From Burkholderiaceae bacterium (GTDB lineage: Bacteria > Pseudomonadota > Gammaproteobacteria > Burkholderiales > Burkholderiaceae_A), in the NCBI GenBank assembly GCA_023261135.1, contig JALRJP010000006.1, positions 1 through 44,353 of the forward strand: 44,353 nucleotides of DNA, written 5' to 3'. Positions 19,207-44,353 of the stretch are shown here, piece by piece. Under the pieces are notes generated by a model that saw only the letters and a program-made list of their open reading frames with translations, ran no database searches and was not told where the DNA came from. A program made the position numbers and the translations under genes. How positions within the stretch are numbered: the first letter of the stretch is position 1; every line of letters begins with the position of its first letter.

Positions 19207-19209
19207 ATC

Positions 19210-21598: not shown

Positions 21599-21634
21599 CC
21601 CCGGTCATCAAGAAAGATGCCGGGGTTCTTTTTT
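21599..21634 (+). terminator. Second intrinsic terminator between convergent operons
   Basis: CCCCGG with CATC and one bulged T pairs with GATG and CCGGGG around an AAGAAA loop, followed by TTCTTTTTT. It is a second stop for plus-strand transcription reaching from hyuB. Its T-run touches the stop codon of the convergent molybdopterin-subunit gene. Confidence 0.8.
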
Positions 21635-24035
21635 ACCCGTCTACTGGAACCTTACCTAGAGCCTGAAGCACACGCTGTGGCGTAAAAGGCTGCATGTTCA
21701 AAGAGGCATTAAAGGGGCTCAGGGCGTCGTTCAGTGCATTCATGAGTGCGCCAGGTGCGCCGGCTGTTCCCGCCTCCCCCGCGCCTTTTGCACCTAGCTC
21801 GGACTGCCTGGTTGGAGTCTGAACGTGACCAACAACAATGTCAGGCATTTCGGCGGCCATAGGAACAAGGTAGTCAGCCATGGTGCCGTTAATCATTTGT
21901 CCGTTTTCATCGTAAAGGCACTCTTCGAGCAATGCTCCGCCAATGCCCTGAACCACACCGCCTCGAATCTGTTCATCGACAAGCATTGGGTTAAGCACCG
22001 TGCCGCAGTCCTCGACACACCAATGTTTCAACAATTTAATCTCGCCCGTTTCAACATCGACTTCCAGATAAGAGGCTTGAATGCCATTGGTGAACGTAAA
22101 ACCATACTCCCGAGGCGTGTAGTGTCTGGTGACAGTAAGTTCAGACTGAAAGTTCATGGGAAGGGTATCGGGTCGGAAGTAAGCCACGCGCCCAACCTCA
22201 GAGAGAGGCATCTTGACTTCAGACGTTAATCTGTCAACAACATTGTTATCGCGAATATCAAGTGTGGCTTTTTCTACAGCCAAGATCGCGGCCGCAACAT
22301 CTAACAGGTTGCTCTTTAGAGCCTTGCCCGACTGAAGAACTGCCTCGCCACCAATACCCGCACCGCGCGAGGCCCATGTTCCACCTCCGTAGGGCATTAA
22401 GGACGTATCCCCCGTAAACACTTTAACTTTGTCGATGCTCACGCCCACTGCATCAGCAGCAACTTGAGCAAACACAGCCTCATTGCCCTGCCCTTGCTCA
22501 GTCACACTGCAGGTCACGGTGATCATGCCCTGAGGATCAAACTTAATGGTCGCACCGTCCTGAGCCGAAATGCGTGCCCCGCCTACCCCGTAGAATGCTG
22601 GCGATGGATTCGTGACCTCGATCATGGCAGCAAGCCCAATACCGCGGAAGATGCCCTTTTTTCTCAGTTCGGCCTGCTCAGCCCTTAGCTTGTCGTACTC
22701 CATAAGGGTAAGCAGCTTTTCAAGGGATTTTTGATGAGAAAGACACTCAAACTTGATGCCTGAGGGAAAGCTTAGGTAAGGATAGGCATCGTCGGGAATA
22801 AAATTAATACGACGAAACTCTGCAGGATCCATGTTAAGTTCACGGGCTGCCTCGTCAACAATACCCTCGGTAATGGCGACTGCAATAGGATGCCCGACCG
22901 CCCTGTACTGGCAGGTTACGTTCTTGTTGGTAAAGACGACATTAAGCTTGGCACGATAGTGCTTATGGCGGTACGGACCTCCGGTTAGATTGACAACCTG
23001 GTTGCCCTCAATCCCGCTGGTACGTGGATAGACCGAGTACGGTCCTATGCCTGTTAAATCATCGAGATCAAATCCAACAATCTCTCCGTTTTGCTTTACA
23101 GCGATGCGAACAGTCGCCTCATGCTCTCTTGCATGAATATCTGTTAAGAAAGACTCCATCCGGTCTGCAAGAAACTTTACCGGCCGCTTCAGCGCAACCG
23201 AAATCGCTGCAGTAGCCATTTCGTCGGCATAGACGTGGACCTTAATACCAAAAGAGCCTCCAATGTCTTTGCAAATAATTCGAACATTAGACTCAGGAAT
23301 ATTTAGATGCTTCGAGAAAATATCTTGCATCATGTGCGGTGCCTGAGTTGCATGATGCACCGTGAGGCTGTGGTCGGCAGGGTTGTAATCGGCCAAGATG
23401 GCTCTTGGCTCAAGGCACACGCCCGTATGCCTTGAAAAACGATAGGTTCGCTCAATAACTCGATCGGCCTGCGCCCAGGCTTCGTCAAACCCTTCTGTCT
23501 TTAGCTCTCGGCTAAAACAGATGTTGTCCTGAAGATCGGGATGAATAACGTACTTGGCCTCAAGTGCGCTGCGCATATCTACAACCGCTGGAAGCAGGTC
23601 GAAATCTGCCTCAATAAATTCAAGCGCGTCCTCGGCCTGACGCCTTGTCTCGGCTACTACTGCAGCAACGGCCTCGCCCTGCCAACAGACCCGATCAACC
23701 GCAATTGGATGTTGAGGTGCAGATTTAATTCCCTTCAGATGGCCGAGCACGCCCACCCATGGTGTACAAAACTCTTGCAGGTCTCTGCCATTGAAGACAG
23801 CAATAACACCTGGGGCAGACTTGGCCTTTAAGAGATTAAGAGACTTGATTCGCGCATGCGCATGGGGGCTTCGGAAGAAGACGACATGCGCCAGACGTGG
23901 AAGCCGAATATCGTCCAAGTAACAACCCCGGCCTTGAACAAGGCGCCTGGCGTTTGAACGAGGAACAGACTTTCCAACATAGCCTGTTTTTTGATCGGTG
24001 GGTAAGTCGAAAGGTATTTCAGACCGGGCATTCAT
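21633..24035 (-). CDS. Xanthine dehydrogenase family, molybdopterin-binding large subunit
   Basis: An 800-residue catalytic subunit of a molybdenum hydroxylase. It has the N-terminal a/b hammerhead domain (about 15-140), the molybdopterin loops (GGSFGIK, GQGNEAVFAQVAADA, WASRGAGIGGEA) and the base E754 in GAKGAGEAGT. At the active-site loop it reads Y377-RAVGHP, not the AYRCSFR of form-I CO dehydrogenase, so CO oxidation is unlikely. The family hydroxylates carbons next to ring nitrogens using water; NAD+, O2 or another acceptor takes electrons. AAGGAG precedes the ATG. It is the last gene of the operon, 1 bp after the 2Fe-2S subunit. No XdhC-type maturase is in the window. Confidence 0.95.
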   Translation of the reverse strand: MNARSEIPFDLPTDQKTGYVGKSVPRSNARRLVQGRGCYLDDIRLPRLAHVVFFRSPHAHARIKSLNLLKAKSAPGVIAVFNGRDLQEFCTPWVGVLGHLKGIKSAPQHPIAVDRVCWQGEAVAAVVAETRRQAEDALEFIEADFDLLPAVVDMRSALEAKYVIHPDLQDNICFSRELKTEGFDEAWAQADRVIERTYRFSRHTGVCLEPRAILADYNPADHSLTVHHATQAPHMMQDIFSKHLNIPESNVRIICKDIGGSFGIKVHVYADEMATAAISVALKRPVKFLADRMESFLTDIHAREHEATVRIAVKQNGEIVGFDLDDLTGIGPYSVYPRTSGIEGNQVVNLTGGPYRHKHYRAKLNVVFTNKNVTCQYRAVGHPIAVAITEGIVDEAARELNMDPAEFRRINFIPDDAYPYLSFPSGIKFECLSHQKSLEKLLTLMEYDKLRAEQAELRKKGIFRGIGLAAMIEVTNPSPAFYGVGGARISAQDGATIKFDPQGMITVTCSVTEQGQGNEAVFAQVAADAVGVSIDKVKVFTGDTSLMPYGGGTWASRGAGIGGEAVLQSGKALKSNLLDVAAAILAVEKATLDIRDNNVVDRLTSEVKMPLSEVGRVAYFRPDTLPMNFQSELTVTRHYTPREYGFTFTNGIQASYLEVDVETGEIKLLKHWCVEDCGTVLNPMLVDEQIRGGVVQGIGGALLEECLYDENGQMINGTMADYLVPMAAEMPDIVVGHVQTPTRQSELGAKGAGEAGTAGAPGALMNALNDALSPFNASLNMQPFTPQRVLQALGKVPVDG

Positions 24036-25391: not shown

Positions 25392-26252
25392 CTATTCCTC
25401 TGCGACGATTCCGTTGGAAAGGATACCAAGGCCATCTGCCTCGACCTCAACAATATCCCCTGGCTTCATAAAGATTGGGGGCTTACGAGCAAAGCCCACT
25501 CCGGAGGGCGTTCCAGAAATAATAATGTCACCTGGAACAAGCCTGAATATTTCGGAACAGGTTGAGATCAGGGTAACGACATCGAAAATCATGTCATTAG
25601 TATTTGCTTTCTGAAGCTCCTGACCATTCAAACGCGTACGGAGTGTGAGGTTCGCTGCGCCATCAGGGAGCTCGTCCGCAGTCACGATGTAAGGACCAAA
25701 GCTTCCCGATGCATCAAAGTTCTTGCCCATCATCCATTGGTGTGACTTGAACTGATAGTCTCGAATGGAACCGTCGTTGAAGAGTGAATAGCCAAAAACG
25801 TGATCTAGCGCATTCTCCTTTAATATATGGCGGCCTGGCTTCCCAATAACCACCGCAATCTCTCCCTCGTAATCAAACTCTTTAGAAACCTTCGGTGCGA
25901 CAAGGTCAGTGTTATGGCCAACCCAAGAAGAGGGAAATCGATGGAAAAGTATGGGGTAAGTGGGAGCATCTTTGTAGGGGCTCTCTGCCGCGTGGTCGAC
26001 ATAATTAAGTCCGACTGCAATGGCCTTGGATGGATTCAGAATGGGCGGAAGGTACTTCAGGTCTTCGAGGGATCGCGAGGGCTTCATATTCTCCCAGTCA
26101 GCTTTAAGCACGTTCATCAACGTGTCTCCCGCTTGAAGCAGCCCATCCAGTGACGTGGGGAAGCCCAGTTCGCTTAGATCGACCACCTTACCGTCCTTGA
26201 TCGCGCCAAGGTGAGAGCTTTGGTCTTCGTGTAAAAAGTTAAGGAATTTCAT
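25392..26252 (-). CDS. Fumarylacetoacetate hydrolase family protein
   Basis: A 286-residue FAH-fold metal-dependent C-C hydrolase, decarboxylase or hydratase. The core IAVGLNYVDHAAE begins the domain, the metal-binding acids E129 and E131 lie in DYEGEIAVVIG, D160 in LFNDGSIRDYQ, and KNFDASGSFGPYIV and GDIISGTPSGVGFARKPP complete the site. The 70-residue N-terminal region is the usual small domain. The family cleaves 3-acylpyruvates or acts on 2-keto-4-pentenoates and related ring-opening products, so it would fit after the neighbouring extradiol-type dioxygenase. Gaps of 16 and 4 bp place it in the same operon. Confidence 0.92.
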   Translation of the reverse strand: MKFLNFLHEDQSSHLGAIKDGKVVDLSELGFPTSLDGLLQAGDTLMNVLKADWENMKPSRSLEDLKYLPPILNPSKAIAVGLNYVDHAAESPYKDAPTYPILFHRFPSSWVGHNTDLVAPKVSKEFDYEGEIAVVIGKPGRHILKENALDHVFGYSLFNDGSIRDYQFKSHQWMMGKNFDASGSFGPYIVTADELPDGAANLTLRTRLNGQELQKANTNDMIFDVVTLISTCSEIFRLVPGDIIISGTPSGVGFARKPPIFMKPGDIVEVEADGLGILSNGIVAEE

Positions 26253-32708: not shown

Positions 32709-33599
32709 TTATCCCCCCCTCTTAAGCCCATTACGTCTCTCCATCACGGCACAGACCGAGGCCGTGTCCTGCATTTCAAATCCCTGAGCGATTGCCTCGT
32801 CGTGAATAGTGGCGGCGATATCAAAGAGTGGCGTCTGCGCGCCAAGCCCCTGAATATAAGAGGAGATAATCGAGATGTCCTTGTGCATAAGGCGGTGAGT
32901 TGCTGAAAGGCCGGTCTCATAATCCCCAGCCACCATCATTGGGCCACGAATCTCAAAAATTCGAGAGCTTCCTGCGCTTCCATGCAGCACCCTGTATACG
33001 GACTCGGGCGCAATGCCCGCCTTCTGCGCAAAGGCGAAGGCCTCGGCTGCAGAGACGTTGTGAATCGCAACGAGAAGATTCGCAACGTACTTCATTTTCG
33101 AGCCGTTACCAAAAGTGCCAAGCTCATGGGTGATACGACCAATTGCGGCAAAGGCAGGTTTCATTCGCTCAATGCCAAGATCATTTCCACTTGCAAAAAC
33201 AGTCAGGTCGGCCCTAGCCGCCTGTGCGCCCGTTCCACTGACTGGACAATCCAGCAGGCAGCCGCCTGCTTTTTCTATCACCGCCATTGCGCTGAATTTA
33301 TCTTCGAGGGTAAGAGTGCAGGTGTCTGCAATCACTATCTCACGAAGCCTCGGGCCCATTTTAGAAAGCTCCTGAGCAACGTCATGCAGGGCCTGAGGAT
33401 TGGGTAACGACGTAATGATTTCTGAGGCCCGCTCTGCCACAGAGGCAGCGCTTTTACAGGCCTGAATCCCCTCTGCTACCAAAGCCTCCGTGCGGGTTGA
33501 ATCAAGGTCAAATCCGAAGACTGTGAACCCCTTACCCAATAAGTTACGCACGTACGCTGAGCCCATGATTCCAAGGCCAATAACGCCAATTGATTTCAA
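32709..33599 (-). CDS. Beta-hydroxyacid dehydrogenase family, second paralogue
   Basis: A 296-residue NAD(P)-dependent dehydrogenase. It shares with the protein at 13667-14623 the Rossmann motif GLGIMGSA, TLTLEDK, DCPVSGTGAQA, the unusual DLTVFASG, the catalytic-Lys block KYVANLLVAIHN and RGPMMV, so the two are clear paralogues in one subfamily. The Lys/Arg-rich tail of the other copy is absent. It is divergent from the 2-oxoglutarate oxygenase gene. Reduction or oxidation of a hydroxymethyl- or semialdehyde-type intermediate is likely; the two copies may handle different intermediates. Confidence 0.9.
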   Translation of the reverse strand: MKSIGVIGLGIMGSAYVRNLLGKGFTVFGFDLDSTRTEALVAEGIQACKSAASVAERASEIITSLPNPQALHDVAQELSKMGPRLREIVIADTCTLTLEDKFSAMAVIEKAGGCLLDCPVSGTGAQAARADLTVFASGNDLGIERMKPAFAAIGRITHELGTFGNGSKMKYVANLLVAIHNVSAAEAFAFAQKAGIAPESVYRVLHGSAGSSRIFEIRGPMMVAGDYETGLSATHRLMHKDISIISSYIQGLGAQTPLFDIAATIHDEAIAQGFEMQDTASVCAVMERRNGLKRGG

Positions 33600-33638
33600 T
33601 TTCCCCTCCCCCTTCGGTGGCTCTATGTAAACAAGCGT

Positions 33639-33658
33639 CTAATTCATGATCGAATTAG
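33639..33658. promoter_or_regulatory. 20 bp inverted repeat in the divergent promoter region
   Basis: CTAATTC-ATGATC-GAATTAG, with perfect 7 bp arms. A related half-site pair, CTAATTCGTTAG, lies downstream at 33725-33736. They sit between the divergent beta-hydroxyacid dehydrogenase and 2-oxoglutarate oxygenase genes. An ATG inside the repeat (33646) opens the oxygenase reading frame but is unlikely to be the real start. Confidence 0.55.
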
Positions 33659-33774
33659 TCTGTTTTTGTTGGCAACTTCTAAAAAATAGAGAACAATTTG
33701 CGAGTGTTGTTGATCAGAAGATTACTAATTCGTTAGAAATAATATCGCGTTCAAGCGTTGCTGAGGAGGCAGGC

Positions 33775-34884
33775 ATGGGAGATATAAGGGAAATTACTGG
33801 GCTCAAGGAAGTCGAAGGTATGGATGCCTCCGAAGGGCCTGATGCACGTACCGCAAATACTGACTGCCGGGCAATTCCAGTTGTTGATCTTGGCCCATTG
33901 ATAAGAGGCGAGAAGGATGCCATTGCGAAAATCGCAGTGCCCTGGAGAGACGCCTGCGAAAACCTAGGCTTTTTATGCATCATCAACCATGGTATTGACA
34001 CTCGGCTTATTGAAGACATGGAAACCCAGTCCCGCCGGTTTCATGATGATTTGTCCGCTGATCAGAAAATGCAGGTGCGGGTCACAAAAGACCAGAAAGG
34101 CTTTATCCCCTCAAAGGCTACGATCCTTACCCACTCCTCGTACCATTCGCATACCAAACTCGACAGCGTTGAGTGTTATGTCGTTGCAACCGATTTTCCC
34201 GATGATCAGAAAGAAGTCGTAAAAGGCACGCAGTTTTATGGGCCAACGCCCTGGCCGCCAGAAAAAGAACTGCCAGGTTTCAAAGATTCAGTGACCCGTT
34301 ACATGAGGGCTATTGAATCGCTTGGCCTGTCCTTACTTCCCGTTTGGGAGGCTGCACTTGACTTGTCGCCAGGATATTTCAAGACCTATTTTGAAAAACC
34401 CTATTGTTACCTGCGTATTGCCAAGTACCCGAAGGTCGACTTCGTACAGGAAAACGAGTTCGGCTTGGGTGCCCATGCCGACACGGGCTTTATGACATTT
34501 TTACCTCCTGCCCTTGAGCCCGGGCTACAGATTCTCGACAAGGAGAAAAACTGGTTTTGGCCTTCGGTTCCCAAAGGCGCAATCCTCGTGAATATCGGAC
34601 AGTTTTTAGCCAGGTGGACAAACGACCGGTTTCGTGCAACCCCGCATCGTGTCCTGCCCCCAAAGAACAACGATCGCTACTCTTTTGCATGTTTCGTCAA
34701 TACCAGCCTGGATGCGGTTGCAGAATGCCTGCCAAGCTGTAAGCCACCCGACTCCCCGCCCAAATACGAGGCCCAGAGTTACTGGTCATTCTTTGAGTGG
34801 TACATGAAGCGTACCTACGTGCACTACGACGACTTCACGGACTCTGACTCAAAAGCAGCAGAAACACCAAAAAGCGCTTCGTGA
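33775..34884 (+). CDS. 2-oxoglutarate/Fe(II)-dependent oxygenase, isopenicillin-N-synthase-like
   Basis: A 369-residue double-stranded beta-helix oxygenase. The N-terminal non-haem dioxygenase region begins IPVVDLGPLIRGEKDAI. The iron triad is H234-x-D236 (GAHADTG) and H291 (TPHRVLPP). R301-Y-S303 is the usual RxS that binds 2-oxoglutarate. The start at 33775 is chosen because GAGGAGG (33763-33769) lies 5 bp upstream and the earlier ATG at 33646 falls in an operator-like palindrome. The family hydroxylates or demethylates many small molecules with release of succinate and CO2. It is followed by an alpha/beta hydrolase 90 bp downstream. Confidence 0.9.
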   Translation: MGDIREITGLKEVEGMDASEGPDARTANTDCRAIPVVDLGPLIRGEKDAIAKIAVPWRDACENLGFLCIINHGIDTRLIEDMETQSRRFHDDLSADQKMQVRVTKDQKGFIPSKATILTHSSYHSHTKLDSVECYVVATDFPDDQKEVVKGTQFYGPTPWPPEKELPGFKDSVTRYMRAIESLGLSLLPVWEAALDLSPGYFKTYFEKPYCYLRIAKYPKVDFVQENEFGLGAHADTGFMTFLPPALEPGLQILDKEKNWFWPSVPKGAILVNIGQFLARWTNDRFRATPHRVLPPKNNDRYSFACFVNTSLDAVAECLPSCKPPDSPPKYEAQSYWSFFEWYMKRTYVHYDDFTDSDSKAAETPKSAS

Positions 34885-34974
34885 GGTTTGTAAGGCGTGT
34901 AATGAGCTCATACCATTGGTCCAGCTGAAGGTCTGGGCGGGCCTTTTGATGCGTGGACAACAGGAGGCGCTGGA

Positions 34975-35826
34975 ATGTTAAAACCCTCGCTCGAGCTTAT
35001 CGAAATAAAAACCGATACAGAGCCGCTGGTCGGGCTCCTTTACCGCCCGCCTGGGGAGCGCCTCGTCCCCAACGCCCGGCGACGCTGCGCAGTCCTATTT
35101 CATGGCAACACCATGAATTTTTATTCGGGCGCGTTGCGATTCCTGCCTCCTCGGCTGGTTTCAATGGGCTACACCTGCCTTGCATTTAACCGTCGTGGTC
35201 ACGATATTCTAACAACCCGCAATAGCCGCAACCCAGAGGGAGGAGCTTTTCAGTCTACTGCGCAGGCGATCGAGGACAACGAACTGGCTGTCGCCTACCT
35301 GCGTAGTCTCAATCTCCCCGCCCCCGTGGTTATTGGGCATAGTAACGGGGGAATGTTGGCTGTGGAATTTGTGTCAAGGCATCCAGAGACGCCCGGGATG
35401 GTACTTTTATCTGCGCACCGGGGCGGCGAAGGCCTTTTGCCTGATGCATCCTCATCCGGACTTTTAGCCTGCGATCAATTGCAAAGCATTACAGAAAAAG
35501 CTGCGGCACTTGTAGAGGCGGGTAAAGGCCAGGCACTCATACAACTGCCTGGCTGGTGGTGGGTGATATCGGCCCAGAGCTTTTTAGATCTAACAAAAAC
35601 CTTACCAGACACCTTGGCTCTTGCGCCCTCCATTCAGTGCCCAACGCTCTTCCTGGTCGGCGACTCGGAACCAACATCGCGTTATCCTGCTCAGGCCTTC
35701 GCCGGAAAAACCCAAGGCAGCTGTACAGTGACAGTGATCGAAGACTGCGATCATTTTTACAACGACCGCGAAGCCCAGGTTTCCGACGAAGTCTGCAGAT
35801 GGCTTACGAGTACATTAGATTCCTAG
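34975..35826 (+). CDS. Alpha/beta hydrolase
   Basis: A 283-residue serine hydrolase. The oxyanion region CAVLFHGNT (about 41-49), nucleophile elbow GHSNGG, acid in LVGDSEPT and His in EDCDHFYND give a complete triad. AGGAGG (34962-34967) precedes the ATG. The lid region is Trp-rich (LPGWWWVISA). It follows the 2-oxoglutarate oxygenase gene and its final 12 bp overlap the convergent aldo-keto reductase gene. The substrate is unknown: ester, lactone or C-C hydrolysis are all possible for this fold. Confidence 0.9.
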   Translation: MLKPSLELIEIKTDTEPLVGLLYRPPGERLVPNARRRCAVLFHGNTMNFYSGALRFLPPRLVSMGYTCLAFNRRGHDILTTRNSRNPEGGAFQSTAQAIEDNELAVAYLRSLNLPAPVVIGHSNGGMLAVEFVSRHPETPGMVLLSAHRGGEGLLPDASSSGLLACDQLQSITEKAAALVEAGKGQALIQLPGWWWVISAQSFLDLTKTLPDTLALAPSIQCPTLFLVGDSEPTSRYPAQAFAGKTQGSCTVTVIEDCDHFYNDREAQVSDEVCRWLTSTLDS

Positions 35827-36804
35827 AGTACCCATCATCTTTTCTGGATAACGCGTTCCAGCGATTTGGGTTGGTGGAAAGGCCTCATCGAGTTGCGCAA
35901 GCTCCGCGGCTGACAACTTAAGATCGATGGCTGCAAGGTTCTCTTCGAGATACTTAACACGCTTAGTCCCCGGAATTGGAATGACGTCGGCTCCTTTGGC
36001 ATGCACCCAGGCAAGAGCAACCTGCGCAGTCGTTGCGCTATGGTTGGAGGCAATTATCCGAACAGACTCGAGCAGCGCAAGATTCTGATCGAGGCTTCCT
36101 CCAGCAAACCGCGGATGGTTAATACGCATATCGCCATCCGACAAAGACGTGAGGTCTTTAATCGTTCCACTTAAAAATCCCCGGCCCAATGGGGCATAGG
36201 CCATGAGCGCCACTCCGAGCTCTCTGCAGGCAGGAAGTATTTCTGGCTCAATGTCGCGACTCCAAAGTGAGTACTCTGTCTCGACGGCCGCGATTGGATG
36301 CACCTTACTGGCTCGGCGTATGGTTTCTGCACCCGACTCAGACAAGCCTAAAAACCGTACCTTCCCCTGCTCTACCAACTGAGCCATAGCGCCCACGGTA
36401 TCCTCAATAGGGACCTCTGGATCAACGCGATGCAGCGCATAGAGATCAATCACCTCTTCACCTAAGCGCTTCAAGGAGTTCTCACAGGCTTTTATCACCC
36501 ATTTAGGATGCCCGCCCGAGAGACCAAGCTCGTTGGCGCCGCCCAGCGCCAAGTTGCCGAATTTTGTCGCAAGAAAAACCTCATCCCTACGGCCCTTGAT
36601 GGCTCTGCCAACGAGCTCTTCATTCGCTCCCTTGCCATAAGCATCAGAGGTCACGATAAGATTCGCCCCCAAATCAATCGCTTTATGAATAGTCTGAGTC
36701 GATGATTCGTCATCGGGCTTTCCATAAAAGATCGACATTCCCATACATCCCAAGCCCTGCGTTGAGACCAAGGGGCCATTTCTTCCTAGTACAACTTTTC
36801 TCAT
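35815..36804 (-). CDS. Aldo-keto reductase lacking the usual catalytic Asp
   Basis: A 329-residue TIM-barrel NADPH reductase of the AKR superfamily (yakc / AKR13-like). The tetrad normally is Asp, Tyr, Lys, His. Y56 (SDAYGKGANEELVG), K81 (LATKFGN) and H125 (YALHRVD) are present, but the Asp expected five residues before the Tyr is V51 (codon GTG): NLIVTSDAY replaces the usual FDTAxxY. Cofactor motifs LGLSESG and IPIPGTKRVKYLEENL are intact, so NADPH should still bind. Activity may be reduced or altered. It ends the minus-strand series amidase, hydrolase, DctP-like receptor, AKR. Confidence 0.9.
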   Translation of the reverse strand: MRKVVLGRNGPLVSTQGLGCMGMSIFYGKPDDESSTQTIHKAIDLGANLIVTSDAYGKGANEELVGRAIKGRRDEVFLATKFGNLALGGANELGLSGGHPKWVIKACENSLKRLGEEVIDLYALHRVDPEVPIEDTVGAMAQLVEQGKVRFLGLSESGAETIRRASKVHPIAAVETEYSLWSRDIEPEILPACRELGVALMAYAPLGRGFLSGTIKDLTSLSDGDMRINHPRFAGGSLDQNLALLESVRIIASNHSATTAQVALAWVHAKGADVIPIPGTKRVKYLEENLAAIDLKLSAAELAQLDEAFPPTQIAGTRYPEKMMGTLGI

Positions 36805-36902
36805 CAGTTTTTCCTCTAAAAATAAAACCTGGAGTCTGGTGGGTGAAGCGCTCTACGCTAAAAATCTAATCTCGCTCGCCCGCCAGGCTTACATCTACAC
36901 AA

Positions 36903-37979
36903 TTAGGAAGCTTCGTATTTCTGACGAGCCTTTAAGAAATATTCCCAGACCTTTCGAACATTCTTGAACCCTTGATCCTCTTGCTTCTTGAACATGACGT
37001 CGTTTGCAGCATCACCACCCTTCTTAATAAAGGTCGCGTCAGACGGGCTGCTCTTGTGAAACTGTATGTTGTTGCTCTTCGCCCAGGCCGCTTTTACATC
37101 AGCCTCGTCGTTCATCAGAGTCTGCCCATATTTAATGGCGTACTCCATACGAAGATCGATAAGCATTTTTTGGAGTTCAGGCGATAGCGCCCTAAACTTT
37201 TTCCCGGAGACAAAAAGTCCCGAGGCGAGAGCCCCACCATTACCGCCTGCTCCGGGCGGGTTTACATAGTGCACATGGTTAACCACTTCGTTAAGTTTGA
37301 AGGCGTTACTAAGAACGATGGCCATGTCACCAAGCGCATCAATGGTCCCGCGATCAATCGCCTGATACATGTCATTGAAGGGCATGAAGATGGGGTTTGC
37401 GCCGAGGCTCTTGTAATAGTCAACGCGAACCCCGCCGTAGGTTCGCAGAGACTTGCCGGACAACTCTTTAACCGAGTTCAGCTTATTTTTAGTGCCTACC
37501 GGAGCGTGCCCGCTTATGTGTGGCATAAGAAAAACAATGTCAGCTTTTTGAATTTCCGCCTTCACATCGGGCTGATTTTCCATCGTATCAATGGCGGCCT
37601 TTAATGCAGCAACGTAGTTGTCTCCGAAATTAAAAACGTTGTCGAGCATAAGATAGTTAGGGAACTGGGTAGGGTAATAGGTACTGCTCACCCAAGCCAT
37701 GTCCGCAATTCCGGATTGAATACCAGGCAAGGCATCTGCCCACTTCACCAAAGAATTTGCCCAGAAGAACTGCACCTTAATTTGACCATTCGATCGCTTC
37801 TCAACCTCTGCAGCCCACCACTTGTGTAGATTTCCAAACCAAGATTTCTCGGGGATCGGCTCCGCGATTTTCCAGACATGCGTCTGTTGGGCTATGGCCG
37901 TTGAAGGAGAAAGCAATACGAAAAATGAAGAAACCAGACCAGCAATTCCTGCACTAACACAACGTCGAGATAATCTCAT
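36903..37979 (-). CDS. Orphan TRAP-type DctP-like solute receptor
   Basis: A 358-residue periplasmic binding protein with a Sec signal peptide cleaved near residue 30 (STAIA). The DctP fold is indicated by WWAAEVEKRSNGQIKVQFFWANSL, GIQSGIADMAWVSSTYYPTQFPNYLMLDNVFN, LSGKSLRTYGGVRVDYYKSLGANPIFMPFNDMYQAIDRGTIDALGD, summarised by the RTYGG and ALGD elements. No DctQ or DctM membrane gene lies in the window, so it either works with a distant transporter or acts as a sensor-type receptor. It is downstream of an alpha/beta hydrolase and an amidase gene on the same strand. Confidence 0.9.
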   Translation of the reverse strand: MRLSRRCVSAGIAGLVSSFFVLLSPSTAIAQQTHVWKIAEPIPEKSWFGNLHKWWAAEVEKRSNGQIKVQFFWANSLVKWADALPGIQSGIADMAWVSSTYYPTQFPNYLMLDNVFNFGDNYVAALKAAIDTMENQPDVKAEIQKADIVFLMPHISGHAPVGTKNKLNSVKELSGKSLRTYGGVRVDYYKSLGANPIFMPFNDMYQAIDRGTIDALGDMAIVLSNAFKLNEVVNHVHYVNPPGAGGNGGALASGLFVSGKKFRALSPELQKMLIDLRMEYAIKYGQTLMNDEADVKAAWAKSNNIQFHKSSPSDATFIKKGGDAANDVMFKKQEDQGFKNVRKVWEYFLKARQKYEAS

Positions 37980-38066
37980 TGTCGCCTCACTTTAGTAGAA
38001 AAAGAGTCCAATTGAACGCTTGCCCATCCTAGGGTTCCTTATCCCAGATGTGATCTAGGGAAAACG

Positions 38067-38080
38067 TTAATAATTATTAA
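38067..38080. promoter_or_regulatory. AT-only palindrome upstream of the DctP-like gene
   Basis: TTAATAATTATTAA is a perfect 14 bp palindrome, embedded in AACGTTAATAATTATTAAACG. It lies in the 114 bp upstream of the DctP-like gene and could be an operator or an AT-rich promoter element. Confidence 0.3.
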
Positions 38081-38093
38081 ACGATCAGTTAGT

Positions 38094-38900
38094 TCACTTA
38101 AAGTGATGCGTGAGTAAGGCGTTAAATTCCTTAGGATTTTGTATGTTGGGAAGGTGGCCAGCATTAGGCACCCCAGCATAACGCGCAGATGGCAGAAGCG
38201 GGGCAAGTTCCAAAAGCGCCTTGGGGAAGGGACCATCGTTCTCTCCCGAAATGAACAAGGTTCGCGGTGTGATTTTGTTAACCAAGGGAAGGTAGGCGAG
38301 TTTCTGAATAGCTTGTGCACAACCGACAAAGCCGTTAACAGTAGTCTTACCAATTTGGTCTTTAAAGCGAGACATGACGGCCACATTGGCGGAATCATTC
38401 GCATACCCTTCACCGAACCAACGCTCCACAGTCGCCTGAGCCATGGCAGTGCATCCTTTGTCCAAAGCAAGCTGAATGCGGGGGTTCCACGAGTCTGCCA
38501 TCTCCTGCGGCATATCGGCCCGTGTATCGCAGATCACGAGGCTTTCGAATCTCGAGGCATGATGAATTCCGAGGCCCAAGCCAATCATCCCGCCAAGCGA
38601 GAGCCCCACGAAATGGGCCTTTGGAATTGCAAGCGTGTCGAGCACTCTCACGCAGTCTTGGGCAAGATCATTCAAGGTAAATCCCAGGCCCGTTGGTCCA
38701 GAAGACCCGTGCCCACGCGTATCCATGCCAAGTACGCGATAGCCTAAAGAACTAAGTAATGTTGCCTGCTCCTCCCACATCATGGAGGAAGAGAGTATAG
38801 AGTGCGAAAGAAGGACCGTTCCCCTGCCTCCCGTCTCGGTGTCATACACCGCAATGGACTGCTCATTGACTTGTAGGATTTTGCAGTTACCAAAACTCAT
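38094..38900 (-). CDS. Alpha/beta hydrolase, 3-oxoadipate enol-lactonase-like
   Basis: A 268-residue serine hydrolase of the PcaD-like group. Triad elements: GLSLGGMIGLGL (nucleophile Ser), SGENDGPFP (Asp) and PNAGHLPNIQNP (His). The oxyanion segment VLLSHSILSSSMMW and GMDTRGHGSS are typical. AGGAGT lies before the ATG. It follows the amidase gene by 27 bp in the same operon. It may hydrolyse a lactone or ester intermediate; the resemblance to enol-lactonases fixes the fold, not the substrate. Confidence 0.9.
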   Translation of the reverse strand: MSFGNCKILQVNEQSIAVYDTETGGRGTVLLSHSILSSSMMWEEQATLLSSLGYRVLGMDTRGHGSSGPTGLGFTLNDLAQDCVRVLDTLAIPKAHFVGLSLGGMIGLGLGIHHASRFESLVICDTRADMPQEMADSWNPRIQLALDKGCTAMAQATVERWFGEGYANDSANVAVMSRFKDQIGKTTVNGFVGCAQAIQKLAYLPLVNKITPRTLFISGENDGPFPKALLELAPLLPSARYAGVPNAGHLPNIQNPKEFNALLTHHFK

Positions 38901-38927
38901 GGTTCACTCCTGTAAAGAATTACGGTT

Positions 38928-41240
38928 TTAATACGCCTTGCCTAGCGGTCCAAATTTGGGAGGCGGCCTACGGCGGCACGAGACCTTTTCATAAGCAGAT
39001 GCCAGCTTCAAAAGCTCAGCCTCGCGACCAATTTCACCTCGAAAAACCAGTGAGAAAGGAAGTCCCACACCATCAACTTTTTGCAGGCTCGTTCCTGGCT
39101 TTGCCTTGTAGGACTGACCATCTTCAGCAAGGGCGAACTCAGCATCGCAGACTTCGTTAACGTAACCTGCAGGCACAAGAATTTCGGTAAGTCCTGCATT
39201 GGGTCCATGGAAAGACTCAAAGAAGTAATGTCGCGCCAAACCAGGTTCTTCTGGATAACCAATGCGGGCTGGCGGAAGCACGGTATGAACACGCACCAGA
39301 GCTTCGAGCTTGTTCTCATGCAACACCATCATGTCAACACGCCTTAGAAGTTCGCGAAGCATAATCCGCTCATCAACACCCTGCCGTCCGCCTAGAGGAT
39401 TTCGAGGATCTGACGTTTCCTGCCAGTTGAGAAAGGCCGCCCGCTGATCATCACCCCAAAAGCTTGATCGCTTATTCAACTCTTCCCAGTTGGTAAGCGT
39501 TTCTTTAATTCCCCAGCGCCCCCAGTCTTCAGCCCTTCGACGTAAATATTGGCTAATGTGAAAGCGGAATGCATGCGCAAGGATCTGGTCTTGAACAGTG
39601 GCCAGGTCAAGGTTTCGCGGGGCAGGCAGCTTGAGATCTGACAGACCAACAAGGTAGTCAATGGGCTCCATGTCTCCGGCCCCAAAGAATTTCCCAGGCT
39701 GGAACTCTGTGGGCTTAATTGCATTTGCAAAATCCGGAAAAACAGGCTCGCCCGCAGGATTAAGACGAAACAAGAGATCTGGCATAAAAACTGGGATAAG
39801 CCGGCAGAGGGCTTCGCTGAAACTGGTCTTCAACTGCTCAATATCAGGGTCAGCCTTCCAATGTGGATGCCTCGACTCCACCAAGGTCAGCCCTAGTCGC
39901 CCTCCGAGCATTTCTTTTATTTCTCTCGAGGCCGCTGCAACAATGGGCTTAACGGCAAGAGTGTCTCCGGGATCGAGCATTGATTCACGAACCACGCCAA
40001 TGCGACGACCGCGAAGAGCAAGAATACTTTGCTCGGATGCCAGATGGGGAACCAAACCCTCAGGGGGTGGATAGCTTGCTCGAGGAACTGTCGTGTAAGG
40101 ATCTCTCGGGTCGTAATAGCCACCCTCCTCGTCCCGCAAGGCATCAAGGATATGGGCACAGTCCTCGAGTGACTTCGCCATGACTCCAGTGCGATCGCAA
40201 TAAATATCGGCGCCAATTGCGCCACCATCAAACCCAAGCATGGCCTTATGAGGAAGGATTAACGCAATGGCATTGTGGTTAGAAGGTCCTCGAGTTGACA
40301 TTCGGGTTTCCTCCCCGAGACTCGCCATGACCATATTGGTAGAGACGGACACGCCAGAACCCGAGCTTGACCCCAGGGATGCTGACCGACTGGTGTCGTA
40401 GGGATTTGCGGGATTCCCACCCCAGGTTGACCGCTGATAGCCTGAGACGGAGGGCAAGATCTTCACCGGCTTATTTCGTCCGCCTGGGTCGCCAGCTCGA
40501 CCGTTGTACTCCGTCATGACTGACTTTGCGAAAATGATGGCGCCCTTCTCGCGCAGGCGTTCAACCAAGAGATGATCCCTTGCCGGGAAGTCGGCATCAA
40601 ACCGAGCGTCGGCTCCGCCTGTGGACCGCATGTCTTTGGTATCGAAGGCGTCCTTAAATGAAAACACCACCCCGTAAAGCGGCATAGCTTGAAGATCGGG
40701 CTTCGCGCCGTACTTTGCATCCAAGTACCTCGCCTGCTCGAGCGCATCAGGATACCGACGAAAGATTTCGCAGACGGCTGGCGCTCCCTCGGGAAGCGGG
40801 CCATCGTCTGGATGTCGGTCGAAATCTCCGTAACAGACAACAGACCTCTCTCCTCGAATATTCAAGGTTGACAGCGCATTGACCTGGTCGGACTTTCCAT
40901 CGCCCACAAGCATGCCGTATTGCTGATAAGCCGTGGGATCGGAGGCCGTCGGCCGCATCTCCCCAAACTCCAAAGGAGGCCCCTTATAGCCCGCAAGATC
41001 TGGAAAGAGTTCCGAGGCGGGGATTGTCTGGCTTGGAAACCTAAGGCGCTCGCCCCCCCGAACGGTACCCGGCACCTCCGGCGCCTTGTCCCCAGTTGGG
41101 GTAACAAGCAGACTGGACGGACCGTTGAAAGCTCGGACACGCTCGAGATACTGGAGAACAACCTGCTCACAAGTGATCTCGGCGTTTTTGATTGCGGCAT
41201 GAAGGTCGCTTATTGATGCTTCAAAGACAGAAAATGACAT
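38928..41240 (-). CDS. Long amidase-signature family hydrolase with variant active-site loop
   Basis: A 770-residue amidase; most members have 450-550. The Ser-cisSer-Lys triad is recognisable: K196 (FSFKDAFDTKD), the cis-Ser at about S292/S293 (GSSSGSGVSV) and the nucleophile S315 in GEETRMSTRGPS, where the usual GSDTGGSIRxP has become GEETRM-S-TRGP. The core sits between a ~150-residue N-terminal part and a long C-terminal extension (about 450-770) with no domain I recognise. There is no signal peptide, so it is cytosolic. It heads a minus-strand operon with the hydrolase at 38094 and probably releases ammonia from an amide intermediate (inference). Confidence 0.88.
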   Translation of the reverse strand: MSFSVFEASISDLHAAIKNAEITCEQVVLQYLERVRAFNGPSSLLVTPTGDKAPEVPGTVRGGERLRFPSQTIPASELFPDLAGYKGPPLEFGEMRPTASDPTAYQQYGMLVGDGKSDQVNALSTLNIRGERSVVCYGDFDRHPDDGPLPEGAPAVCEIFRRYPDALEQARYLDAKYGAKPDLQAMPLYGVVFSFKDAFDTKDMRSTGGADARFDADFPARDHLLVERLREKGAIIFAKSVMTEYNGRAGDPGGRNKPVKILPSVSGYQRSTWGGNPANPYDTSRSASLGSSSGSGVSVSTNMVMASLGEETRMSTRGPSNHNAIALILPHKAMLGFDGGAIGADIYCDRTGVMAKSLEDCAHILDALRDEEGGYYDPRDPYTTVPRASYPPPEGLVPHLASEQSILALRGRRIGVVRESMLDPGDTLAVKPIVAAASREIKEMLGGRLGLTLVESRHPHWKADPDIEQLKTSFSEALCRLIPVFMPDLLFRLNPAGEPVFPDFANAIKPTEFQPGKFFGAGDMEPIDYLVGLSDLKLPAPRNLDLATVQDQILAHAFRFHISQYLRRRAEDWGRWGIKETLTNWEELNKRSSFWGDDQRAAFLNWQETSDPRNPLGGRQGVDERIMLRELLRRVDMMVLHENKLEALVRVHTVLPPARIGYPEEPGLARHYFFESFHGPNAGLTEILVPAGYVNEVCDAEFALAEDGQSYKAKPGTSLQKVDGVGLPFSLVFRGEIGREAELLKLASAYEKVSCRRRPPPKFGPLGKAY

Positions 41241-41352
41241 GCTTCATAATTCCCTTTACTGAACAAATGATAAACAGCATTCTTGGGTTTGCAAGGTATG
41301 AGAACTACTAATATCCGAACTATAAAAATTCTGTTGCATTAACGGTCATGGC

Positions 41353-41366
41353 GAGACACCTGTCTC
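41353..41366. promoter_or_regulatory. 14 bp inverted repeat between divergent amidase and hydrolase genes
   Basis: GAGACA-CC-TGTCTC, a perfect 6-2-6 palindrome, sits in the roughly 170 bp intergenic region upstream of both divergent genes. It is a candidate operator. It has the same spacing as the repeat at 10457-10470, but a different sequence. Confidence 0.45.
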
Positions 41367-41410
41367 TTTACTAGCCTTTTAAACACACTATGGAAGGAGT
41401 TACATCTGTT

Positions 41411-42181
41411 ATGCCAACGCTTGAACATTCTCTGGGAGCCACCGACTTTGAAAGAGCCGGGCCAACTCAACAAAGACCGCTGGTGCTCTTTCATACCCTT
41501 CTTGCCGATCGCAGCGTTTACGATGGCATTTTTCCGGTGCTGGCAAAGACACGCGATGTCATTCGTTTTCAATTCCCCGGGTTTGGTGATTCCAAGGGCC
41601 GATGCGAATCCATTGACGATTACGCCAGCTGGACCATTTCCTTTCTTAAAGCACTGGCATTGCCATGTCCTGTGGACGTTTTCTCCAATGGCTTTGGCGG
41701 TTTCGTCTCTGTTGGGGTGGTAAGTCGTGCACCCGAATTAGTCAATAAACTTACCATTGCAAACAGCGGGGCGGCCTTTCCTGATGAGCGCAAGCCGCCC
41801 CTTCTCAAGATGGCGGAACTCGTTGAGACTAAGGGAATTGAGTCGGTTCTTGACACGGCCATCTCGCGAATGTTTCCAGAGGAATTTGCAACCGCCAACC
41901 CTGAAATCGTGAAACAGAGAAAAGAGGCACTTTCTAAAACGAACCCCCAGCAATTTGCCGTAGCCTGTCGGGCACTTGAAAAACTTGACTATCGCGCGCT
42001 TGCAAAGGGCATAAGTAAGCCCGTTCATATTGTTGCTGGCCTTAACGATGCAACGACACCACCCGCCATGTCCCAGGAGTTGCACAAAATTATCCAAGGG
42101 TCGGAGTACTCCGAGATTGACGATTGCGGCCACTGCCCTCAAATTCAGCAGCCGCAAAAAACTTTGCAACTACTGAGCTAG
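41411..42181 (+). CDS. Alpha/beta-hydrolase-fold protein without the catalytic nucleophile
   Basis: A 256-residue protein in which the nucleophile elbow reads F-S-N-G-F-G-G: the serine of GxSxG is replaced by G94 (codon GGC). The acid D213 (GLNDATTPP) and H241 (DCGHCPQIQQP) remain. The oxyanion segment LVLFHTLLADRSVYD and FPGFGDSKG keep the fold. The start at 41411 is preferred because AAGGAG lies 11 bp upstream; an in-frame ATG at 41390 is possible. From memory the pyrimidine-pathway protein RutD has Ala at this position, so a nucleophile-free member acting on a labile carbamate or similar compound has precedent. It lies 85 bp before the next hydrolase. Confidence 0.88.
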   Translation: MPTLEHSLGATDFERAGPTQQRPLVLFHTLLADRSVYDGIFPVLAKTRDVIRFQFPGFGDSKGRCESIDDYASWTISFLKALALPCPVDVFSNGFGGFVSVGVVSRAPELVNKLTIANSGAAFPDERKPPLLKMAELVETKGIESVLDTAISRMFPEEFATANPEIVKQRKEALSKTNPQQFAVACRALEKLDYRALAKGISKPVHIVAGLNDATTPPAMSQELHKIIQGSEYSEIDDCGHCPQIQQPQKTLQLLS

Positions 42182-42265
42182 AGGCTTGGCCCGAAAAGGA
42201 CCTTATGTCCTCGAAATTAACGTTGACAAAATTTTTAAACGTTCCAAACCGGAAGGAAGATTGTT

Positions 42266-43495
42266 ATGGCACAAGACAACCTCATCGAGGTTATTACTGA
42301 AAATAAACTGCCTCATTACGAGCCCTACGGATGGCATCACTGGCCTGAGCACCCTTGGCTTGCGTATCAGTTTAGGCGGGGACTTGGCGAGACTCAGGAG
42401 GGCGGGGGCGCAGTCAGTGAGGTATTCCAAGCAGCAAGTCGAATGATCCCAGGTGATCTGGAGAGCTGGCACAAAGAATGGAAGCACATTGCAGACCGCA
42501 ACTGGACAAGAGGTTCGGAGGCTGAGGCGAGTGGTCACATACGAACCGCAATGAACTGCTTCCTGCGGGCGGCTGACTACTATCGACAAGCCGAGTTTTT
42601 TCTAAAACCGGACGACAAACGCCGGCTAGCAACCTTTGAAAAAATGGAGGCCTGTAGCCATCGCTTTCTTAAGTCCCTTAACCCACCCGGAGAGATCGTC
42701 GATATTCCTTACGAGAACGGAGTGCCGATATGCGGATATTTCGTTCGCAGCCCCTACCCTGTCGCGAAGCAGCCGGTGCTTATCTGCATGGGCGGACTTG
42801 ACTCCATTAAGGACGAAATGTGGTTCATGCAGGCAAAAGGCGCCTTGCAGAGAGGGATTGCTGTCTTAATGATCGACGGGCCTGGCCAGGGTGGAACTTT
42901 AAGGCGACATGGGGTTCCGAACCGGGTAGATACCGAGGTTCCGATCGGCAAGTGTATTGATTGGCTTGAGGCGCGCTCGGATATTGACGCAAGCCGAATC
43001 GCCGTGTGCGGATCGAGCCTCGGGGGCTACTATGCGGCCCGTGCAGGATGCTACGAGCATCGCCTAGCGGCCTGTATTGCGCACGGCGCCATTTGGGCAA
43101 TTACGGACCTCTGGGGTGAGGCCTCCGAAGACCACGGGTTATCCGAACACATTAAGTGGGTCTTCGGCTGTGGTTCCATGAAAGAGTCCATGAAGAAGGC
43201 CAAGGACTTCACGCTTGATGGGCACCTTGACCATATGCAATGCCCGTTTCTTGTAATGCACGGTGGGCACGATGTGCTCACCGTATCACAGGCTCAGAAG
43301 GTCTATGACTACGGCAAAGCCAAGGGCAAGGACGTAACGCTTCGGTTACTTAACGAGGAGGAGACGGGGGCGGAGCACTGCCAACACGACAACCCCACCA
43401 TTGGCCAGGAAATTCTTGGTGACTGGCTCGCCGATCGATTCGGTATCGACCAGCGAGCCTTAATGAACAGTGGGAGTACACCCTTTTCCCTCTAA
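42266..43495 (+). CDS. Alpha/beta hydrolase related to 2,6-dihydroxypseudooxynicotine hydrolase
   Basis: A 409-residue serine hydrolase with an N-terminal helical cap (about 1-150) before the alpha/beta core, the architecture of 2,6-dihydroxypseudooxynicotine hydrolase and fungal pigment hydrolases. The triad is S251 (CGSSLGGYYA), D336 (HGGHDVLTV) and H371 (GAEHCQHD). Other landmarks: GGLDSIKDEMWFM and IDGPGQGGTLRRHG. In nicotine breakdown the related enzyme cleaves a C-C bond next to a dihydroxypyridine ring; the same chemistry here is inferred. AAGGAAG precedes the ATG. It converges with the ACMSD-like gene (24 bp between stops). Confidence 0.88.
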   Translation: MAQDNLIEVITENKLPHYEPYGWHHWPEHPWLAYQFRRGLGETQEGGGAVSEVFQAASRMIPGDLESWHKEWKHIADRNWTRGSEAEASGHIRTAMNCFLRAADYYRQAEFFLKPDDKRRLATFEKMEACSHRFLKSLNPPGEIVDIPYENGVPICGYFVRSPYPVAKQPVLICMGGLDSIKDEMWFMQAKGALQRGIAVLMIDGPGQGGTLRRHGVPNRVDTEVPIGKCIDWLEARSDIDASRIAVCGSSLGGYYAARAGCYEHRLAACIAHGAIWAITDLWGEASEDHGLSEHIKWVFGCGSMKESMKKAKDFTLDGHLDHMQCPFLVMHGGHDVLTVSQAQKVYDYGKAKGKDVTLRLLNEEETGAEHCQHDNPTIGQEILGDWLADRFGIDQRALMNSGSTPFSL

Positions 43496-43519
43496 GAAAA
43501 AAGGCGGGGCACCCAGAAA

Positions 43520-44353
43520 CTAGGGCTTTAGTTTGAATAGTTTCTGGGCATTACCGCCCATGATCATTTTCGCGTCGGCGCGCGACAACTTAGGTACCGA
43601 CGATATTAAACCCACCGGATCTGTCTCTCCCATGTCGTAAGGGTAGTCGGTGCCGAGCATGACATGATTGGCACCAAACCTTGCAATTAAGCTTTGCAGC
43701 ATTCCGGGATCAAACGTGATGGTGTCGAAGTAAAACTTCTCAAGGTACTTCGAAGGCTTGGTCGTAATCACCGTACGCACATCAGGTCTCTTATGGCCGT
43801 GATCCATTCTCGCCCAGTAATGGGCCAGGTACCCGCCCGAATGCGCCAGAATAATCTTAAGCTTGGGGAATCGCTTCATAAAGCCATCAAAGATCAGATG
43901 GCTTACTGCGATGGTTGTTTCAAGAGGATTGCCAATGATGTTGTTCAAGTAATGATCGGTGAGGCGCTCTGCATGACTAAAGCCGTTGGGATGCATAAAT
44001 AGAACGGCTCCCAGCTCTTCTGCCTTGGCAAAAAAAGCATCCAGCCCTAGGGAGGGGTCGGTTAGGTCCTTGCCGTTGACATTGGTTCCAATTTCAACCC
44101 CCTTTAACCCCAGCACTTTAACCGCCCGCTCAAGCTCCTTCACAGCGAATTTTGCATTCTGAAGGGGAACGGTCCCCATTCCAGCCAACCTTTTAGGGTA
44201 TTGCGCCACGATGCCAGCAATCCCCTCGTTAACGCTCTTTGATAGCTCTAGGCCAAAATCGGGTTCGGCGAAGTAGTAATACTGAAAAGGCGCGGGTGAA
44301 ACGACCTGCACGTCCACGCCCATCTTATCCATGTCCTTGATACGTGTTGGAAT
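43520..44353 (-). CDS. Amidohydrolase family, ACMSD-type decarboxylase/hydrolase (5' end beyond window)
   Basis: A TIM-barrel metal enzyme of the amidohydrolase-2 / ACMSD family, cut at the right edge. The frame stays open to the last base (IPTRIKDMDKMGVDVQVVSP), so the Met at 44332 is internal and the N-terminal HxH metal motif lies outside. Visible ligands are the His in LFMHPNG, the His in AHSGGYLAHYWARMDHG and the catalytic Asp in GTDYPYDMGE. The C-terminus MIMGGNAQKLF is typical. Relatives decarboxylate 2-amino-3-carboxymuconate semialdehyde or hydroxypicolinates, fitting a nitrogen-ring pathway (inference). Confidence 0.92.
   Translation of the reverse strand: MPTRIKDMDKMGVDVQVVSPAPFQYYYFAEPDFGLELSKSVNEGIAGIVAQYPKRLAGMGTVPLQNAKFAVKELERAVKVLGLKGVEIGTNVNGKDLTDPSLGLDAFFAKAEELGAVLFMHPNGFSHAERLTDHYLNNIIGNPLETTIAVSHLIFDGFMKRFPKLKIILAHSGGYLAHYWARMDHGHKRPDVRTVITTKPSKYLEKFYFDTITFDPGMLQSLIARFGANHVMLGTDYPYDMGETDPVGLISSVPKLSRADAKMIMGGNAQKLFKLKP

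Follow-up and report, generated by a model that had tools for sequence, protein, structure and literature searches.

The window, meaning the whole stretch of 44,353 nucleotides analysed here, carries a gene for a PcaD-like protein of the alpha/beta-hydrolase fold in which the nucleophile position of the elbow is occupied by glycine. The frame is intact, with zero internal stops. An alternative in-frame ATG lies upstream at 41390 and would give a protein of 263 residues; in a 77% identical homologue (genome G001) the sole start codon found near that end corresponds to 41411. The genes around it and the codons that bear on the argument are listed below, where 'members' are the 49 distinct proteins of the Gly-elbow clade and 'background' the 25 nearest PcaD-like relatives outside it. 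The codon coordinates of Gly94, Asp213 and His241 were derived by hand from the sequence.

38094–38900, minus strand: PcaD-like paralogue with a Ser elbow, GLSLGG (TIGR02427, 190.8 bits against a cut-off of 255.85)
38928–41240, minus strand: amidase-family protein, divergent from the Gly-elbow gene and in the same place in G001 (Pfam PF01425, synteny)
41411–42181, plus strand: Gly-elbow alpha/beta-hydrolase-fold protein, PcaD-like, 256 aa (open frame, Pfam and NCBIfam matches, homologues, model and fold match)
41492–41494, plus strand: His28 codon, in the loop after the first core strands, putatively on the oxyanion side by homology (His in 49/49 members and 25/25 background)
41687–41689, plus strand: Asn93 codon, clade-specific (Asn in 49/49 members; Leu, Ile or Met in 25/25 background)
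41690–41692, plus strand: Gly94 codon GGC at the nucleophile position, elbow S92-N93-G94-F95-G96-G97 (Gly in 49/49 members; Ser in 25/25 background)
41867–41869, plus strand: Arg153 codon, common to PcaD-like proteins, of putative function (Arg in 49/49 members and 25/25 background)
41918–41920, plus strand: Arg170 codon, clade-specific, of putative function (Arg in 48/49 members, 0/25 background)
42047–42049, plus strand: Asp213 codon, catalytic acid position (Asp in 49/49 members and 25/25 background)
42131–42133, plus strand: His241 codon, catalytic base position (His in 49/49 members and 25/25 background)
42266–43495, plus strand: FrsA-like hydrolase with a Ser elbow, GSSLGG, the next gene downstream (Pfam PF06500; best PDB match 2jbw)
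43520–44332, minus strand: Amidohydrolase_2-family protein, frame open to the contig end, kept beside the pair in G001 (Pfam PF04909)

The window and G001 share one gene order: the PcaD-like Ser enzyme (minus), the amidase (minus), the Gly-elbow gene (plus), the FrsA-like gene (plus) and the amidohydrolase (minus). Past the point at which the contig of the window ends, G001 continues with a homologue of CocE/NonD-type hydrolases, a MaiA-type GST and a 3-hydroxyisobutyrate-dehydrogenase-like gene. The PcaD-like paralogue is 25% identical to the Gly-elbow protein, and the PDB entry closest to the FrsA-like hydrolase, 2jbw, is a 2,6-dihydroxy-pseudo-oxynicotine hydrolase. Between the window and G001 the FrsA-like protein is 91% identical, and is thus more conserved than the Gly-elbow protein (77%). 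The amidase-family protein (770 aa) matched 24 NCBIfam models, all far under their cut-offs, the best score being 120.4 against 534.

Elsewhere in the window, a hydantoinase/oxoprolinase A and B pair (17083–21528, plus strand; 707 and 772 aa) is also found in G001, and the end of the B protein matches the acetone carboxylase gamma subunit. The large subunit of a molybdenum hydroxylase is encoded at 21633–24035 on the minus strand; homologues of it and of its two adjoining genes lie near the Gly-elbow gene of a further genome (G035, locus L084), in which the adjoining pair are FAD and 2Fe-2S subunits. A gene with a fumarylacetoacetate-hydrolase (FAH) domain (25407–26024, minus strand; PF01557, 234.8 bits) is situated 15 kb from the Gly-elbow gene.

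Membership of the alpha/beta-hydrolase superfamily follows from Pfam PF00561 (Abhydrolase_1; 54.1 bits over 25.8), and the fold matches agree. The named models that match best are of the PcaD kind, and the protein scores 129.3 bits with the NCBIfam model for PcaD (TIGR02427) and 38.9 bits with that for RutD (TIGR03611), below the curated cut-offs of 255.85 and 238.5, respectively. Its best PDB sequence match is the 3-oxoadipate enol-lactonase 2xua. A structure predicted from a four-row alignment (the window protein, the 77% homologue and two Ser-type paralogues) reached a pLDDT of 78.8 and a pTM of 0.79; an earlier model from a two-row alignment had a mean pLDDT of 43 and was discarded. The best fold match of the model is again 2xua (query-normalised TM 0.89 and 0.90 for two chains; Z 32.5; rmsd 1.9 over 250 residues), and comparison with RutD (3v48) gives a Z of 28.0. 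Loops 120–123 and 214–217 are poorly modelled, the latter, which adjoins Asp213, with a pLDDT below 50, and pocket geometry is therefore not claimed.

Distribution and conservation of the Gly-elbow clade

Homologues were separated into Gly and Ser groups by the motif NG[FY]G. Among 100 related genomes the matches form two tiers: six genomes, that of the window included, score at least 174 bits and show the elbow N-G-F-G, and the rest score at most 78 bits, the loci with a readable elbow being of the Ser type. In the order, class, phylum and distant-family searches scoring was limited to the best candidates per genome. Within the order of the window, 17 of 399 genomes (its own included) reach at least 346 bits, followed by G244 at 220 bits, which is of the Gly type, and by a Ser-type match at 162 bits. 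At E 1e-45 the class sample yielded one genome of 369, the window's own, and the phylum sample nine of 398, six of the Gly type and three of the Ser type. One more distant family of the phylum harbours a member in 28 of 149 genomes at E 1e-60, with a Gly-type elbow in every one of the 28. The gene is present in nine of the 11 genomes of the G037 family and is patchy in the window's own genus, as one of ten other genomes, several of them incomplete, carries a member.

Plasmids contributed 436 records with a match, the top five at 34.8 to 32.2% identity. Three of these five were read, two from Methylobacterium and one from Sinorhizobium, and all are of the Gly type; the public annotation of the five is merely 'alpha/beta fold hydrolase' or 'alpha/beta hydrolase'. 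A named strain that carries the gene is Methylobacterium radiotolerans JCM 2831 (MRAD2831_RS61285). The viral contigs scanned contained neither clade members nor PcaD-like proteins. A literature search by title and abstract opening in a limited collection returned nothing on the Gly-elbow clade, which does not prove its absence from print.

The 49 distinct members come from 18 genomes in the order of the window, 28 in another Pseudomonadota family and three plasmid records, and the background consists of 25 Ser-type loci with a tblastn E of at most 1e-25 to either of two clade members. All members are identical at Asn93, Gly94, Gly96, His28, Arg153, Asp213, Thr216 and His241, among others, with Arg170 in 48 of 49. 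The elbow follows the pattern G/S/A-N-G-[FY]-G, and Gly94 is written with three codons (GGC in 36 members, GGT in nine and GGG in four). Aligned with PcaD-like relatives, Gly94 occupies the Ser column, and Asp213 and His241 occupy the conserved Asp and His columns; the background has Ser at position 94 throughout and shares Asp213, His241, His28 and Arg153 with the clade. Across the 74 aligned rows no residue besides Gly or Ser occurs at the nucleophile position. The original prediction, a hydrolase fold with Gly in place of the catalytic Ser and with Asp213 and His241 kept, is thereby confirmed.

Eleven positions are fixed in the clade (at least 47 of 49) and nearly absent outside it: Leu31, Leu55, Pro56, Asn93, Gly94, Phe123, Met134, Arg170, Ala185, Leu189 and Pro243. 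At position 55 the window protein itself has Phe. The ten positions that changed together with Gly94, the new Arg170 among them, have the appearance of a re-tuned site and not of a lone lesion.

A tree with 25 members shows the Gly clade as a single branch with support 100/100, drawn within the Ser-type proteins (the midpoint root serves for drawing only). It is again a single branch in the tree with 49 members, from which the elbow columns were left out (SH-aLRT 100, stem 1.75). The tree length inside the 49-member clade amounts to 18.4 changes per site, with zero changes at Gly94. The drawn topology fits a single ancient loss of Ser; since the root is a midpoint, we infer the direction, from Ser to Gly and not the reverse. 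Comparison of the window gene with its 77% homologue gives a pN of 0.16 and a saturated pS of 0.88, and the neighbouring amidase is similar (0.17 and 0.83). Judged by its residues, codons and tree, the Gly-elbow clade is an old, maintained branch and not a broken copy.

Genes that accompany the clade

Neighbours were counted by tblastn of chosen representatives, because some automatic gene calls in these GC-rich loci had been placed on the wrong strand: clusters of such calls (3, 18, 19, 21 and 32, for instance) have no Pfam match, with cluster 32 situated opposite the Gly-elbow gene. With the window limited to 33001–44353, the first 25 member loci contain aldehyde dehydrogenase (ALDH) in 16 cases, GntR in 15, a MaiA-type GST in 11, TctC in ten, the FrsA-like gene in nine (window included) and RidA in eight. 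The 19 Ser-type loci contain ALDH once, TctC 12 times and none of GntR, MaiA-type GST, FrsA-like or RidA genes, a comparison that leans towards members, as the queries were drawn from member loci or the window, and in which several contigs are short. In 20 further member loci ALDH occurs in seven, GntR in ten and TctC in two, and the FrsA-like, MaiA-type GST and RidA genes in none; ALDH is thus present in 23 and GntR in 25 of all 45 member loci. Many of these loci are closely related, with nine from a single genus, and the counts are therefore descriptive and not independent. The TctC carboxylate receptors are no commoner beside members (10/25) than beside Ser-type relatives (12/19).

For the ALDH beside the gene, identity between a Methylobacterium plasmid and G084, which belongs to the order of the window, is 68%; the Gly-elbow proteins of the window and Methylobacterium share 35%. 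The genome of the window has its best match to the member-locus ALDH on another contig, at 37% identity. The MaiA-type GST scores above the TIGR01262 maiA cut-off in all three cases tested. In one subclade the loci L125, L128 and L130 have a gentisate 1,2-dioxygenase gene in the vicinity of the Gly-elbow gene (above the TIGR02272 cut-off in both of the two tested), and the gentisate-type link comprises these three loci with a dioxygenase. A maleylacetate-reductase-like Fe-ADH gene is directly upstream of the Gly-elbow gene in L126 and L128. Nine loci (L124, L132–L137, L140 and L141) have a branched-chain-type ABC transporter operon adjoining the Gly-elbow gene, and in L090 such an operon lies beyond the GntR and ALDH genes. 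Taken together, the neighbours, which vary by subclade, suggest that ring acids, aromatic or other, are taken up and broken down.

Measured from the Gly-elbow gene, FAH-family genes lie at a distance of 4.4 kb in G1245, about 5 kb in G1160, 9.5 kb in G1211 and 23 kb in G001, and in G084 one shares its contig, 98 kb away. They are absent from the 148-kb contig of G1135 and the 4.8-kb contig of G1145 and occur elsewhere in both genomes. In the chosen part of the neighbour proteins that was searched with Pfam or NCBIfam, neither RutA nor RutB was reported.

Other neighbours are confined to a few loci. An FGE-sulfatase-domain gene (L127:9686–11041) and a histidine-specific methyltransferase gene (L129:5083–6054) are placed near members, and we take both to be of the ergothioneine-synthesis type. 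A guanine deaminase that scores above its cut-off is encoded at L091:11109–12503, with a 97% identical gene at L113:10712–12106; an MFS transporter gene stands between the deaminase gene and the Gly-elbow gene.

Proposed catalysis, its alternatives and known relatives

Alpha/beta-hydrolases are usually read by means of the Ser-His-Asp triad, and members devoid of Ser are easily labelled as hydrolases or dismissed as broken. The clade described here is well bounded and widely sampled, and combines a single loss of the nucleophile with retention of the remaining machinery, definite co-changed residues and a named carrier strain. What becomes of a hydrolase site once its nucleophile is gone can thus be tested directly, and the clade may provide a step in ring-acid breakdown that has so far escaped recognition.

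On balance we consider it probable that the clade is an active PcaD-like branch that lost its nucleophile Ser once, long ago, and that works without an acyl-enzyme, with the His-Asp pair as general base. The Asp213–His241 pair would either activate water for direct attack or deprotonate an enolisable substrate. The site emptied by the loss of Ser (Gly94), with the adjacent Asn93, might leave room for water, or for an oxygen of the substrate, close to the oxyanion hole, and Arg153 and the new Arg170 may hold the carboxylate or carboxylates of the substrate. As substrate, a carboxylated and enolisable intermediate from the ring cleavage of aromatic acids is probable, which names a class of compound only, and the reaction would belong to the class of proton transfer or direct water attack on such an intermediate. 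We infer activity, the general-base role, the parts given to Asn93 and the arginines, and the substrate class alike. A bolder extension, which is possible though doubtful, would make the N-G-[FY]-G clade an undescribed metal- and cofactor-free class, in which a covalent lactonase would have become a general-base catalyst that performs a C–C or tautomer/isomer step on products of gentisate-type ring cleavage, in the company of MaiA, gentisate dioxygenase or a dedicated ALDH, in two Pseudomonadota classes.

Several other explanations have to be weighed. The probability that the glycine stems from a recent mutation or a sequencing or assembly error is negligible. Its codon is, as had been pointed out, one change from AGC, yet this change maps to one old branch and not to a recent step. 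Whether Gly is conserved or all relatives have Ser had been proposed as the deciding check, and the 49 distinct members, from 46 genomes and three plasmid records, all have Gly, in three codons. With a pN of 0.16 beside a saturated pS, decay is rejected along with mutation and error, and the view that this is not a decaying copy holds. A pseudoenzyme, that is a non-catalytic sensor or a partner of the neighbouring enzymes, is unlikely. The classical nucleophile is gone, a GntR gene is present in 25 of 45 member loci, and non-enzymatic proteins with an alpha/beta-hydrolase fold and no working nucleophile do exist in the NDRG family, NDRG3 being an example in one account (PMC7022630). As that account describes it, however, NDRG3 has its triad replaced throughout and its site obstructed (PMC7022630), whereas the clade is without the nucleophile only and keeps Asp213, His241, His28 and Arg153 in 49 of 49 members. 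As only the nucleophile is lost, and Asp, His, His28 and Arg153 are kept, general-base catalysis fits better than a dead fold. The suggestion that the protein acts without covalent catalysis or as a binding partner accordingly divides: the fixed Asp, His and His28 fit its first half, and the partner role is the less likely of the two, given an Asp-His pair that has stayed invariant over a divergence of 18 changes per site.

It is improbable that another side chain, most plausibly Ser/Thr29 after His28, has taken over covalent catalysis. A hydroxyl is found at position 29 in 49/49 members compared with 17/25 Ser-type relatives, but Ser29 is already there in those 17 and hence is no new feature; the other conserved Ser, Thr and Cys residues (Ser61, Cys186 and Thr216) are also common in the Ser-type set. 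A special case of the favoured general-base reading, to which we give only a slender chance, is a metal-free acylpyruvate (maleylpyruvate/fumarylpyruvate) hydrolase in place of the usual FAH-family enzyme. In its favour are the loci with a gentisate dioxygenase close to the gene (L125, L128 and L130), those with a maleylacetate-reductase-like Fe-ADH immediately upstream (L126 and L128) and the MaiA-type GST of 11 of 25 loci. Nonetheless, FAH genes are close by in G1245, G1211, G1160 and the window and occur elsewhere in the genomes of G1135 and G1145; since FAH genes are still nearby, the Gly-elbow enzyme is no simple FAH replacement and this special case is weakened.

Alpha/beta-hydrolase folds without the nucleophile Ser are already known, as in RutD, the HOD-type dioxygenases and NDRG. 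PcaD (TIGR02427; 2xua) is the closest fold and sequence match to the Gly-elbow protein, of similar length and with the same frame of Asp, His and Arg153. The two differ in that the 25 PcaD-like relatives have the elbow Ser, Arg56 and Arg134, whereas the clade has Gly94, Pro56 and Met134 (48/49) and has gained Asn93 and Arg170. RutD (TIGR03611; 3v48) resembles the clade in a Ser-less elbow after a polar residue (G-H-A-L-G in Escherichia coli) and in its surroundings, as the rut operon includes the Rid-family rutC and a RidA-like gene occurs in eight of the first 25 member loci. In contrast, its elbow has Ala and His where the clade has Gly and Asn, and RidA is found in none of the 20 further member loci. 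The reaction of RutD is itself unsettled, the protein being dispensable for growth on uridine in the account of one report (PMC8113886).

In the HOD-type dioxygenases, as one source presents them (PMC10548524), a His-Asp pair takes a proton from the substrate, catalysis can do without the nucleophile, and Ser-to-Ala replacements occur naturally. The residue pattern of the clade would fit a His-Asp dyad with a dispensable nucleophile of the kind used by these cofactor-free enzymes (HOD, QDO and AqdC). The acid of HOD, Asp126, probably lies after strand 6, whereas that of the clade, Asp213, is in the PcaD position. In the meta-cleavage C–C hydrolases of the BphD and MhpC kind Asn precedes the nucleophile, within an elbow G-N-S-M-G, and a water-attack mechanism has been proposed; these enzymes keep Ser. 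Their structures fit the clade profile worse (1j1i at 79.6 and 2wud at 60.9 bits) than does PcaD 2xua, at 128.7 bits.
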